Positions 5,528 through 26,343 of a stretch of DNA of 64,000 bases are shown here, piece after piece. The stretch's first letter is position 1; every line of letters starts with the position of its first letter. The notes under the pieces are model-generated. The model was not told where the DNA came from and made no database searches. It was given only the letters and a program-made list of their open reading frames with translations. A program made the translations under genes and the position numbers. This stretch comes from Desulfobacterium sp. (GTDB taxonomy: Bacteria; Desulfobacterota; Desulfobacteria; Desulfobacterales; Desulfobacteraceae), in contig JAQYWC010000011.1 in the NCBI GenBank assembly GCA_030145245.1, positions 1 through 64,000 of the forward strand. The letters are read 5' to 3'.

Positions 5528-8176
5528 ATGAGTTCTGATTCTCTTGACAAAGGATATGATCCTGTCGGGATTGAGAAGAAATGGTATGAATATTGGGAAA
5601 AACAGGGTTCTTTTAAGGCTCAGGATACCAGTGAGAAACAAGCCTATTCAATAGTCATACCCCCGCCCAATGTCACCGGGGTCCTTCACATGGGCCACGC
5701 CCTGAATATTACAGTGCAGGATATCATGTGCCGCTTCAGAAGACTCATGGGAGACAATGTCCTGTGGATGCCCGGAACCGATCATGCCGGCATTGCGACC
5801 CAGAACGTTGTTGAGCGCAATCTTGCACAAAAGGGCGTGACACGGGATCAGCTTGGAAGAGAGAAGTTTATCGAAGAGGTGTGGAAGTGGCGTGAGCAGT
5901 CCGGCGGCGCCATTATCAACCAGCTTAAGAGAATCGGAGCCTCCTGCGACTGGGACCGGGAGCGATTCACCATGGACGAGGGCCTGTCAGAGGCCGTGCG
6001 CAAGGTCTTTGTAAGGCTGTACAAGGAAGGTCTTATTTACGAGGGCAAGTACATCACCAACTGGTGCCCCAGGTGCAAGACTGCCCTTGCCGATCTCGAG
6101 GTCGAATATGAAGAGCAGGACAGCTTTCTGTACTACATCCGTTATCCCTTTGAGAACGGAGAGGACGGACTGGTAGTTGCAACAACCCGGCCTGAGACCA
6201 TGTTCGGTGATACCGGGGTTGCCATCAACCCCCATGACGACCGGTACAAGGACCTTACGGAGACCCAGGTGATCCTTCCCCTGACCGGAAGGAAGATCCC
6301 AGTTGTCCGGGATACCTACGTTGATACGGAGTTCGGAACCGGTGCCCTCAAGATCACCCCGGCCCATGATCCCAACGACTTCAACCTCGGCAAGACCCAC
6401 AACCTTGAGAGCATCAAGGTGATCGACGATGACGGCAAAATGACCGAAGGCGCTGGAGATTTTGCCGGTCTTGATCGTTTTGACTGCAGAAAAGCGGCCG
6501 TGGAGGAGCTGGAAAAACAGGGCCTCCTTATTAAAAAAGAGCCGTTAAAGAACAGCGTTGGACAGTGCTACCGTTGCAGGACCGTTGTGGAACCCTGCCT
6601 GTCTAAGCAGTGGTTTGTCAAGGTCGCCCCCCTTGCCAAGGAGGCTGCCGATGCCGTCCGAACCGGAAAAACCAGGATCGTTCCTGAAAACTGGTCAAAG
6701 ACCTATTTTGAGTGGATGGATAACATCAGGGACTGGTGTATCTCCCGGCAGATCTGGTGGGGACACAGGATTCCGGTATGGAAGTGTTCTGCTTGCGGTG
6801 AGGTGATCGTCGAGGAGCATGATCCGGATTGCTGTACCGCCTGCGGTTCCAAGGAGATCATCCAGGAGACCGACGTGCTCGACACATGGTTCAGCAGCGC
6901 TCTCTGGCCATTTTCAACCATGGGATGGCCGGAAAATACTGAACTCTTGAAGACATTCTATCCCACCAATGCCCTGGTCACCGGGTTTGATATCCTCTTT
7001 TTCTGGGTTGCCCGGATGATGATGATGGGTATCCACTTCATGGATGAGGTGCCGTTTAAGGATGTTTACATCCACGCCCTGGTCCGGGATGAGCACGGAA
7101 AGAAGATGAGTAAGTCCAAGGGAAATGTAATTGATCCCTTGAAGGTGATCGACAATTATGGCGCCGATGCGTTCCGGTTCACCCTGGCGGCTTTTGCAGC
7201 CCAGGGCAGGGATGTGAAGATGAGCGAAGATCGTGTCGAAGGCTACCGCCACTTTGTGAACAAGCTGTGGAATGCGGCCCGGTTCGCCATGATGCACCTG
7301 GATGAAACATCCGGATCCAAGGAGGCGTTGACCGATCTCTCCCCCATGGAGAAGTGGATCCTGGCACGGTCGGCTGCAACAGCCCAGGCCGTGAAAGACG
7401 GCATCGAGAACTACAAGTTCAACGAGGCTGCCAGTGCCATCTACCAGTTTGTATGGCATGAGTTCTGCGATTGGTTCCTTGAGGCTGCAAAGCCCGCCCT
7501 GTACGAGAAAGAGGGTGCAGCACGCCGGGACACCGCAAGGGCTGTGCTTGCAAAGGTGCTGGAAGAGAGCATTCTCATGCTTCATCCCTTTATGCCCTTT
7601 GTGACCGAAGAGATCTGGAGCATGCTGCCCACGGTTGAGGGCAGTGTCATGGAAGCAGGCTTCCCAACCGCGGGCGAAGCGGACGCAGGGATCGAAGCGG
7701 ACATGTCCTTTGTCTTCGGGTTGATTTCAGGCATTCGAAACATCCGGGGTGAGATGAACATTCCGCCCTCCATGCAGCTCAGGGTGATGATGCAGACCCA
7801 GGACGAGCAGGAGACAGCCTTGATCGGGGAGAACCACTCCATGATCGAGAATCTCTCCCGCCTGGAGAGCCTCGAGGTTTCCCTGCCAGGGGTGAACAAC
7901 GCCTCGTCTGCCACCGCCGTTGTCGGCTCCACCACCGTTCATGTGTTTCTGGAAGGGGTGATCGATTTCGACAAGGAGGAGCAGCGCCTTCAAAAGGATA
8001 TTGAAAAGGTAACCAAAGAGCTCCTTTCCATATCTAAAAGGCTCAACAACGAGAGTTTCCTTGAAAAGGCTCCCGAGGAGGTTGTTCGAAAGGTGAACGA
8101 GCAGCAAGCCGAACTTAAGACCAAGAACGACAAGCTGAGAAACAATTTAGAACGAATTCAGAAGATGAAGGGCTAA
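5528..8176 (+). CDS. valS: valyl-tRNA synthetase
   Basis: An 882-aa class I aminoacyl-tRNA synthetase that charges tRNA-Val with valine in the cytoplasm. The HIGH-type motif is HMGH at residues 54-57 after PPPNVTGVL, and the KMSKS motif appears as KKMSKSKGN near residue 525. The editing (CP1) region contains TTRPETMFGDT. A zinc-type CysXXCys pair (WCPRC, WKCSACG) is present. The C-terminal 65 residues are the tRNA-binding coiled coil usual for ValRS. GGAG precedes the ATG by 7 bases. Its stop overlaps the stop of the convergent diguanylate cyclase gene. Confidence 0.98.
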   Translation: MSSDSLDKGYDPVGIEKKWYEYWEKQGSFKAQDTSEKQAYSIVIPPPNVTGVLHMGHALNITVQDIMCRFRRLMGDNVLWMPGTDHAGIATQNVVERNLAQKGVTRDQLGREKFIEEVWKWREQSGGAIINQLKRIGASCDWDRERFTMDEGLSEAVRKVFVRLYKEGLIYEGKYITNWCPRCKTALADLEVEYEEQDSFLYYIRYPFENGEDGLVVATTRPETMFGDTGVAINPHDDRYKDLTETQVILPLTGRKIPVVRDTYVDTEFGTGALKITPAHDPNDFNLGKTHNLESIKVIDDDGKMTEGAGDFAGLDRFDCRKAAVEELEKQGLLIKKEPLKNSVGQCYRCRTVVEPCLSKQWFVKVAPLAKEAADAVRTGKTRIVPENWSKTYFEWMDNIRDWCISRQIWWGHRIPVWKCSACGEVIVEEHDPDCCTACGSKEIIQETDVLDTWFSSALWPFSTMGWPENTELLKTFYPTNALVTGFDILFFWVARMMMMGIHFMDEVPFKDVYIHALVRDEHGKKMSKSKGNVIDPLKVIDNYGADAFRFTLAAFAAQGRDVKMSEDRVEGYRHFVNKLWNAARFAMMHLDETSGSKEALTDLSPMEKWILARSAATAQAVKDGIENYKFNEAASAIYQFVWHEFCDWFLEAAKPALYEKEGAARRDTARAVLAKVLEESILMLHPFMPFVTEEIWSMLPTVEGSVMEAGFPTAGEADAGIEADMSFVFGLISGIRNIRGEMNIPPSMQLRVMMQTQDEQETALIGENHSMIENLSRLESLEVSLPGVNNASSATAVVGSTTVHVFLEGVIDFDKEEQRLQKDIEKVTKELLSISKRLNNESFLEKAPEEVVRKVNEQQAELKTKNDKLRNNLERIQKMKG

Positions 8177-24400: not shown

Positions 24401-24437
24401 AAAAGCCGTTATCAGCTTAGGGCTGATAACGGCTTTT
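24401..24437 (-). terminator. attenuator terminator of the ilv operon
   Basis: On the minus strand, AAAAGCCGTTATCAGC pairs with GCTGATAACGGCTTTT across a 5-base loop, followed by a long U-run broken by one C. It stands between the leader peptide stop and the ilvD ribosome site. Its upstream arm is also complementary to the GGGCTGACTGTGGC segment overlapping the leader stop. Confidence 0.92.
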
Positions 24438-24472
24438 AAAGGTCTTAATCTTATTTATGCCACAGTCAGCCC
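24420..24472 (-). promoter_or_regulatory. antiterminator pairing of the ilv leader
   Basis: The minus strand GGGCTGACTGTGGC (24459-24472) can pair with GCCGTTATCAGCCC (24420-24433) by a 7-bp and a 3-bp helix around a 4-base internal loop. This uses the 5' arm of the terminator and so excludes it. A ribosome stalled in the leader peptide would favour this pairing. Confidence 0.75.
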
Positions 24473-24549
24473 TTTCTCCCGGAGGTGATAATAATCACCT
24501 CCACGATAATGACAGATAGTAGCAAGTTGACAATAAGATTTTTGATCAT
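24466..24549 (-). CDS. ilvL: ilv operon leader peptide
   Basis: A 27-codon ORF, too short for the ORF track. Seven residues are Ile, four Leu and four Val, with runs NLLLSVIIV and VIIIT, and it ends in TGA just before the antiterminator. A perfect 9-bp hairpin (GGAGGTGAT and its complement) lies over the Val-Ile-Ile-Ile codons and can act as the pause hairpin. It closely resembles in design the ilv leader peptides of enteric bacteria: low charged tRNA-Ile, Leu or Val stalls the ribosome and permits read-through into ilvD. The ribosome site (AGGA) is 14 bases upstream, longer than usual. Confidence 0.88.
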   Translation of the reverse strand: MIKNLIVNLLLSVIIVEVIIITSGRKG

Positions 24550-24587
24550 TTTTTTGTAGCAAGTCCTTTTAAATTTTTTAATCTATT

Positions 24588-24795: not shown

Positions 24796-26343
24796 ATGAT
24801 TAAACAGATAACCCTCAGGATTGACCCTGAAAACGGTTCAGACCTTACACTTATAAAAGATATGGCTTCAAAAGCCTTGAAGGTCTCCCTTGAATCCATA
24901 GATGGGGTTCAGGTGCTCCGGCGCTCATTGGACGCCCGGAGCAGAAAACCTGTTTTTCAAATCCAGGTGGCTGTTTATTGCGGTGAGCCTGTACAGGAGA
25001 TTATGCAGCCGGTGGCTTACCAGCCTGTAAAAAAAGGAAAAAAGGTGATTGTCGTGGGGACCGGTCCGGCCGGTCTGTTTGCAGCACTCAGGCTTATTGA
25101 ACATGGTATCCGGCCGATTCTTCTGGAAAGGGGCAAAAATGTGCGGGAGAGACGGTTTGATCTGAAAACCATCAACACCGACGGCATCACCCACCCGGAT
25201 TCCAACTATTGCTTTGGGGAGGGGGGGGCCGGAACTTACAGTGACGGCAAGCTCTTCACCCGGTCAACAAAACGGGGTGATGTGAAAAAAATGCTCTCCA
25301 TCCTTGTTCAGCACGGTGCTGTCCGGGATATCCTTATTAATGCCCATCCCCATGTTGGTTCCAACAAGCTGCCCAAAATCATTGAATCCATCCGGGACAC
25401 CATACTTGAATGCAATGGTGAGATCCATTTCAACTCCAGGGTGACAGACCTGATAATTAAGGATGGCACCATAAAGGGGGTCACCACCCGGGATGCGGAA
25501 TATCTGGCAGATGCCGTCATTCTGGCCACCGGGCACTCTGCCCGGGATATCTATGACCTGCTTGACCAAAAGGGCATACAGCTTGAGGCGAAGCCCTATG
25601 CCATGGGCGTGAGGGTGGAACATCCCCAAAACCTGATTGATTCGATCCGGTACAGAAGCCCAGTGCGCGCCCCCTCCCTTCCCGTGGCAAGCTATTCCCT
25701 TGCCTGCCAGGTGGGTAAAACAGGGGTCTACTCCTTTTGCATGTGCCCGGGAGGCATGCTGGTCCCGGCTGCCACGGCCCCGGGTGAGCTGGTTCTCAAC
25801 GGCATGTCCAACTCACTTCGGAACCTGCCCCTTGCCAATGCCGGCATGGTGGTGACCATTGGGCCGGACCAGTATCAGAAATATTCAAAGTTGAAACATT
25901 TCGCAGGCCTAGAATTCCAGAAGGAGATCGAAAGAAAAGCCTTTGATGCCGGCGGAAAAACCCTGGCAGCACCTGCCCAGCGACTCACCGATTTCCTGGA
26001 AGACCGTGTATCGTCAACCCTGCCCGAAACCTCTTATATCCCGGGCATGGTCTCCTTTACCCTGGCAGACGTGCTGGGCCCCTTTATCAGTGACGCCCTT
26101 AAGCAGGGGTTGAGAATCTTTGACAAGAAGATGAAGGGATACGTCAGCCGGGAGGCCACCCTCCTGGGCGTGGAGAGCCGTACCAGCTCACCTGTGAGAA
26201 TTCCCAGGATGACTGATACACGGATGCACCCCCAGGTACTGGGGCTTTTCCCTGTGGGTGAAGGATCCGGTTATGCCGGGGGGATTATTTCGTCAGCCAT
26301 TGACGGAGATGCAAGTGCGGACGGCGTTTTTGCCTATGTCTAA
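24796..26343 (+). CDS. FAD-dependent dehydrogenase (COG2509 family)
   Basis: A 515-aa flavoprotein. An N-terminal domain of about 80 residues (KQITLRIDPENG...) precedes the dinucleotide-binding motif VIVVGTGPAGLFAALRLIEHG and the family block CFGEGGAGTYSDGKLFTR. The C-terminal part has VSFTLADVLG and GEGSGYAGGIISSAIDG, closing the FAD site. The family is widespread in anaerobes but its substrate is unknown. It is divergent from the ilv leader. A REP palindrome begins immediately after its stop codon. Confidence 0.9.
   Translation: MIKQITLRIDPENGSDLTLIKDMASKALKVSLESIDGVQVLRRSLDARSRKPVFQIQVAVYCGEPVQEIMQPVAYQPVKKGKKVIVVGTGPAGLFAALRLIEHGIRPILLERGKNVRERRFDLKTINTDGITHPDSNYCFGEGGAGTYSDGKLFTRSTKRGDVKKMLSILVQHGAVRDILINAHPHVGSNKLPKIIESIRDTILECNGEIHFNSRVTDLIIKDGTIKGVTTRDAEYLADAVILATGHSARDIYDLLDQKGIQLEAKPYAMGVRVEHPQNLIDSIRYRSPVRAPSLPVASYSLACQVGKTGVYSFCMCPGGMLVPAATAPGELVLNGMSNSLRNLPLANAGMVVTIGPDQYQKYSKLKHFAGLEFQKEIERKAFDAGGKTLAAPAQRLTDFLEDRVSSTLPETSYIPGMVSFTLADVLGPFISDALKQGLRIFDKKMKGYVSREATLLGVESRTSSPVRIPRMTDTRMHPQVLGLFPVGEGSGYAGGIISSAIDGDASADGVFAYV

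Follow-up and report, generated by a model that had tools for sequence, protein, structure and literature searches.

A predicted ribosome-mediated transcription attenuator before the ilvD operon of a Desulfobacterium and its relatives

The leader before the ilvD operon of Desulfobacterium sp. (contig JAQYWC010000011.1) is, with a probability of roughly 0.92 by our estimate, a classical ribosome-mediated transcription attenuator. This reading is based on the parts found in the sequence, their conservation, the competing pairings of the RNA and a modelled switch between them. It is most likely, as the folding model predicts, that a stalled ribosome decides whether the ilvD operon is transcribed. 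We infer that a ribosome coupled to the polymerase translates the leader, and that transcription changes in response to isoleucine, leucine and valine (ILV). Positions below refer to the whole stretch of 64,000 nucleotides that was analyzed, called the window.

The leader, its RNA elements and the operon

The elements of the leader, in the order of transcription, are as follows:

24617-24588, minus strand: probable leader promoter, with -35 TTGACA at 24617-24612, a spacer of 18 nt and a -10-like AATCAT at 24593-24588
24567-24564, minus strand: AGGA, possible ribosome-binding site of the leader, at a long spacing of 14 nt from the ATG
24549-24466, minus strand: leader peptide ORF, MIKNLIVNLLLSVIIVEVIIITSGRKG, 27 codons and TGA
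24526-24511, minus strand: region 1 (protector), CUUGCUACUAUCUGUC, inside the leader and able to pair with region 2
24502-24481, minus strand: pause-type hairpin, GGAGGUGAU-UAUU-AUCACCUCC, perfect 9 bp over Glu-Val-Ile-Ile-Ile-Thr codons
24472-24459, minus strand: region 2, 5' half of the antiterminator, GGGCUGACUGUGGC, including the leader stop UGA (24468-24466)
24433-24420, minus strand: region 3, GCCGUUAUCAGCCC, shared by the antiterminator (its 3' half) and the terminator (its 5' arm)
24437-24401, minus strand: intrinsic terminator hairpin (regions 3 and 4), 16 pairs and a loop of 5
24404-24395, minus strand: U-run of the terminator, a T-run after the stem

The peptide contains seven Ile, four Leu and four Val residues (15/27), exactly the 27 codons and 15 ILV codons counted in the earlier note, and when the region was dinucleotide-shuffled 3000 times, an equally ILV-rich ORF appeared 4 times. 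The -10 of the promoter is a poor match; 41 of 47 relatives have a -35-like TTGAC between -85 and -28, counted from the leader start. This upstream signal makes unlikely a transcription start downstream of 24549, the event that the earlier note had set against its own reading. The promoter -35 (24617-24612) and the end of the T-run (24395) fall slightly beyond the interval 24401-24549 given there. Leader initiation is of uncertain strength because the AGGA-ATG spacing (14 nt) is atypical. It should be noted that the Shine-Dalgarno sequence is weak or distant in the window (24549-24570), and many relatives have no clear one.

The 191-nt leader RNA folds at -66.9 kcal/mol, compared to -34.8 ± 4.0 kcal/mol in shuffles (z = -8.0). 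Regions 2 and 3 are complementary at 12 of 14 positions, and their duplex, the antiterminator, has an energy of -20.6 kcal/mol, which is equalled by 2 of 200 shuffles. The duplex of regions 1 and 2 has -13.5 kcal/mol (equalled by 3/200 shuffles) and is contained in a fold closed by the outer helix AAUCUUAUU/AAUAAGAUU. On its own, the terminator is strong (-23.4 kcal/mol). Thus, the pause hairpin over Val-Ile-Ile-Ile, the antiterminator pairing and the terminator with a long U-run before ilvD, all predicted earlier, were located at 24502-24481, in regions 2:3 and at 24437-24395 (16 bp), respectively. The terminator palindrome (24401-24437) is almost symmetrical and also gives a score on the plus strand.

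Downstream, each gene of the operon was named by a curated NCBIfam model:

24368-22701, minus strand: ilvD, dihydroxy-acid dehydratase, first gene of the operon (TIGR00110, 774 bits)
22587-20893, minus strand: ilvB, acetolactate synthase large subunit (TIGR00118, 837 bits)
20869-20363, minus strand: ilvN (ilvH), acetolactate synthase small subunit (TIGR00119, 208 bits)
20231-18639, minus strand: cimA, citramalate synthase, of the threonine-independent isoleucine route (TIGR00977, 710 bits)
18620-17076, minus strand: leuA, 2-isopropylmalate synthase (TIGR00973, 709 bits)

Apart from a weak match inside leuA, no minus-strand terminator was found between ilvD and leuA. The earlier suggestion that the controlled operon includes cimA and leuA agrees with the gene assignments (TIGR00977 and TIGR00973, all on the minus strand), and their control by the leader is predicted from the model. 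The upstream neighbour (24796-26343, plus strand) is divergent from the leader, and the leader terminator therefore has no upstream gene to end.

The ilvD start (24368) is 26 nt beyond the terminator, and the leader stop is approximately 98 nt from the ilvD ATG. This geometry bears on the alternative that the leader acts mainly on translation, through re-initiation of the ribosome or shielding of the ilvD start. Such roles have been proposed for many short leader genes, and a structural gene can be translated more strongly when a translated ORF lies close upstream (PMC4833913). However, the proposal concerns peaks of leader-gene distance at 10-14 bp (PMC4833913), whereas in the window the distance is approximately 98 nt and a terminator lies between, and we consider a mainly translational role very improbable.

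Conservation, competing pairings and the modelled switch

Using 58 related genomes, we obtained 54 ilvD matches and read the upstream regions of 50. Of these 50 ilvD genes, 47 are preceded by a leader ORF rich in ILV and by a terminator built around CCGUUAUCAGCC, and the leaders are approximately 51% ILV overall. The three loci that lack this architecture are L032, L048 and L049; at L048, ilvD lies directly behind another gene, and the genome of L032 carries the leader before ilvB and cimA instead (L119 and L120). The lineage had been described as sulfate-reducer-like, correctly so: the nearest named record is Desulfobacterium sp., with an ilvD 97% identical.

Every alignment gap in the coding part of the leader (columns 46-114) is a multiple of three. 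Five leaders (L031, L036, L039, L041 and L047) have a one-base insertion (column 115 or 127) that shifts the reading frame at the leader's end, moving the stop downstream; most of these shifted stops are still at region 2 or a few bases from it. In these five leaders, the new stop is often just 3' of region 2, and the peptide ends in LIMA or similar. The ILV-codon hairpin is conserved as well: the stretch folds better than approximately 95 of 100 shuffles in 42 of the 47 relatives, and the pairing of regions 1 and 2 is beyond chance (at most 10/200 shuffles) in 28 of 47.

In the alignment, 94.8% of the terminator cells are paired, and 19 cells are changed on both sides, compared to 3.1 in shuffles (0/500). 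The antiterminator is paired in 85.6% of cells, against 18-59% for slid controls, and, taken sequence by sequence, 44 of 47 leaders have an antiterminator that outdoes at least 95% of shuffles. Within the 47 ilvD leaders alone, covariation between regions 2 and 3 was not above that of shuffles (covariation score, 165/500), and therefore a swap test across more loci was needed. We used 78 loci, including leaders of ilvB, cimA and leuA, and 5000 permutations. Paired with its own region 3, region 2 has a mean energy of -17.3 kcal/mol, compared to -15.5 kcal/mol with those of other loci, a difference found in 0/5000 permutations for all loci, 105/5000 for ilvD alone and 0/5000 for the other loci alone, with relatedness ignored throughout. 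For example, the pair is GGGUUGAUAAUGG/CCGUUAUCAGCC in the order, and GCCUGAUGAUGA/CCGUUAUCAGG or GCCUGGCGGUGG/CCGCUGUCAGG before cimA elsewhere. RNAalifold returned the terminator as the only structure of the order-wide alignment, because the ILV hairpin shifts in position and the alternatives are mutually exclusive.

The switch was modelled thermodynamically, with a transcript that ends just after region 3 and a ribosome mask placed on each codon in turn. For the window, the probability of the 2:3 pairing, P(2:3), is 0.65-0.78 with the ribosome at codons 2-22, 0.00 from codon 23 to the stop, and 0.01 when no ribosome is present. In the model, every one of the 47 leaders switches, i.e., at least one ILV stall codon gives a value over 0.5 and the stop codon a value below 0.3. 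Folding with competing structures, the check proposed in the earlier note, thus reproduced the predicted switch in 47/47 leaders, the 2:3 pairing forming with the ribosome on ILV codons and not with it at the stop codon. The permissive zone has 65% ILV codons, compared to 17% beyond it (medians of the 47 leaders), so the ILV-rich stretch ends at the boundary that is predicted from the RNA. With no ribosome, P(2:3) is below 0.5 in 30 of the 47 leaders; in the remaining 17, termination is not favoured. At equilibrium, the terminator wins in the full-length RNA of the window in every ribosome state (P34 = 0.92), and the switch would consequently rest on kinetics, with the choice made during transcription. 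For enteric attenuators, a choice during transcription is the accepted view.

The proposed mechanism can be put as follows. RNA polymerase would start approximately 30 nt before the leader ATG, with a ribosome following along the leader. With an ample supply of charged Ile-, Leu- and Val-tRNA, the ribosome would reach the stop codon inside region 2 and cover this region; regions 3 and 4 would then pair, and transcription would stop before ilvD. Conversely, when any of the three amino acids is scarce, the ribosome would stall on ILV codons and disrupt region 1 and the hairpin; region 2, being freed, would pair with region 3 while region 4 is still to be synthesized, no terminator would form, and ilvD-ilvB-ilvN-cimA-leuA would be transcribed. 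With no translation, region 1 would hold region 2 and the terminator would form.

The strength of the terminator, which at equilibrium works whatever the state of the ribosome, could also be explained by a constitutive, housekeeping terminator that damps transcription, the short ORF being there by chance or being non-regulatory and its peptide having no role. The chance level of the ILV content given above (4/3000 shuffles) argues against this explanation. Furthermore, ILV content, frame and the position of the stop at region 2 are kept in 47/50 loci (with five stops shifted), and the complementarity of regions 2 and 3 is kept in other classes, before other genes; we give a housekeeping terminator very little chance.

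Distribution in the phylum and a second, aromatic leader

We built a covariance model of the element (R1) and used it to search 194 genomes from the order and 297 sampled from the phylum. The element was found in 175 of the 194, and in 118 of the 123 that reach 90% completeness with no more than 5% contamination. With the 47/50 ilvD genes, this is a strongly positive outcome of the search in other Desulfobacterota that had been proposed as a check. The phylum sample gave matches at E <= 0.001 in 26 genomes from outside the order; in other classes, the element precedes ilvB, cimA and leuA. In 40 loci that were inspected, the first gene downstream is mostly ilvB, cimA, leuA, a leuA-like paralogue or ilvD; the leader precedes whichever gene of branched-chain amino acid (BCAA) synthesis leads the operon, be it ilvD, ilvB, cimA or leuA. 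Some weak phylum matches before unrelated genes (L143, L144 and L149) were taken as chance. Among named ilvD relatives of Spirochaetes, Clostridia and Eggerthellaceae, the R1 matches were weak (at most 24 bits, on AT-rich contigs) and none was convincing. No second BCAA attenuator was found in the genome of the window, where the other R1 match is solely the antisense of the same terminator. Two genomes carry a second copy of the ILV attenuator (L111 and L112, on G009:C40 and G017:C1) before a leuA-like paralogue approximately 30% identical to leuA of the window; consequently, the paralogue may be BCAA-controlled.

The genome of the window also has a Phe/Tyr/Trp-rich leader ORF, VITFNADNFYFYFRYYFNTGLPVVH, with a strong terminator (L158, on G000:C57, upstream of 6943-7728, minus strand). 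Similar aromatic leaders, usually ending in (T/R)GLP, are present at L152-L157, L159, L160, L168, L122 and L123. The gene behind them was named from its sequence as archaeal-type ADH synthase-like, of the aromatic precursor route. Within the aromatic leader, GGTCTGCC is complementary to GGCAGACC/GCAGACC in its terminator, and at L158, L159, L152 and L154 two strong terminators stand in tandem between the leader and the ADH synthase-like gene. Judging by these sequences, the Phe/Tyr-rich leader looks like a second, aromatic attenuator of similar design.

We tentatively propose, at slightly less than even odds, that the leaders form a homologous, undescribed attenuator family with the core GGGUUGAUAAUGG/CCGUUAUCAGCCC, which would be the main regulator of BCAA synthesis across Desulfobacterota and would travel with the leading gene (ilvD, ilvB, cimA or leuA); together with the Phe/Tyr-rich leaders before the aromatic-precursor gene, ribosome stalling would then serve these anaerobes as their general amino acid sensor. 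The system would tie cimA, and with it the threonine-independent isoleucine route, to attenuation, and it offers a form of regulation open to experiment in lineages whose amino acid control is little known. The alignment can serve directly for building an RNA family, with which annotators could mark the missing leader genes.

Comparison with known systems

No Rfam family, T-box included, reached its gathering threshold on the window, and relaxed thresholds gave sub-threshold matches over hairpins only (Thr_leader, 18.1 bits versus 55). A metabolite riboswitch or T-box, with the terminator as its expression platform and an incidental ORF, would account for a structured leader with a conserved sequence core and a terminator before an amino acid operon, but, apart from these Rfam results, conservation falls on codons and on the four regions that pair, and the RNA ahead of region 2 is coding sequence, which leaves no separate aptamer and makes this the least probable of the alternatives. 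The search of the leader peptides against Pfam and NCBIfam matched no family. The ilvD leader under study, an attenuator in our reading, is thus without a family in Rfam, Pfam and NCBIfam, and the mechanism itself is already known. Attenuators of this same prediction class were reportedly predicted in Proteobacteria by Vitreschak (2004) and Lopatovskaya (2010), and may include some of former Deltaproteobacteria.

The Corynebacterium ilvB-II/ilvBNC leader is similar in its BCAA-rich upstream ORF, its terminator and the attenuation proposed before acetolactate synthase genes; compared by its description, it differs in phylum and in having ilvB as the first gene (PMC10272879, PMC11857589). RNA elements before ilvB or ilvD are also known as the ilvB-OMG, Leptospira ilvB and Veillonella ilvD motifs; the first two have been reinterpreted as BCAA-rich upstream ORFs, and the third was published as a weak riboswitch candidate (PMC10272879, PMC8632094). 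Those of the three that are in Rfam, to which the comparison is limited, scored below threshold on the window. According to a survey of Rfam families from 2013, Ile/Val attenuators were absent from Rfam, and an origin of amino acid attenuators in Gammaproteobacteria was suggested as a possibility (PMC3766115). In a survey of metal-reducing deltaproteobacteria, leader peptides and ilv genes are unmentioned (PMC545781).

The leader had been called enteric-type, which is apt for the predicted mechanism and does not extend to family membership: the leader peptide of the window gave no match at E up to 10 to the models of the enteric IlvGEDA leader, PF08046 (Pfam) or NF007744 (NCBIfam), whereas E. 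coli IlvL, used as a control, scored 61.5 and 81.9 bits, respectively. The R1 score of the E. coli ilvL region (1.6 kb) is 16.7 bits, which comes from the Val-Ile codons and is not significant at genome scale. Terminator sequences are unrelated between the window and E. coli ilvXGMEDA, and the operon of the window has ilvB-ilvN, cimA and leuA. Conversely, both systems combine an ILV-rich leader peptide, competing structures, a terminator with a U-run and BCAA genes including ilvD. Both also have a V-x-V-I-I-I run, encoded as GTG...GTG ATT ATT ATC, within a hairpin, and GTGGAGGTGATTATTATC of the window and GTGGTGGTGATTATTATC of E. coli are alike in 17 of 18 bases. Since the shared amino acid demand and the Ile-codon hairpin loop could yield this likeness independently, we do not claim common descent. 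Attenuation is best known from enteric bacteria, and the leader described here would extend the textbook mechanism to sulfate reducers and their relatives as a conserved, order-wide system, the value of which lies in the breadth of its conservation rather than in the mechanism.
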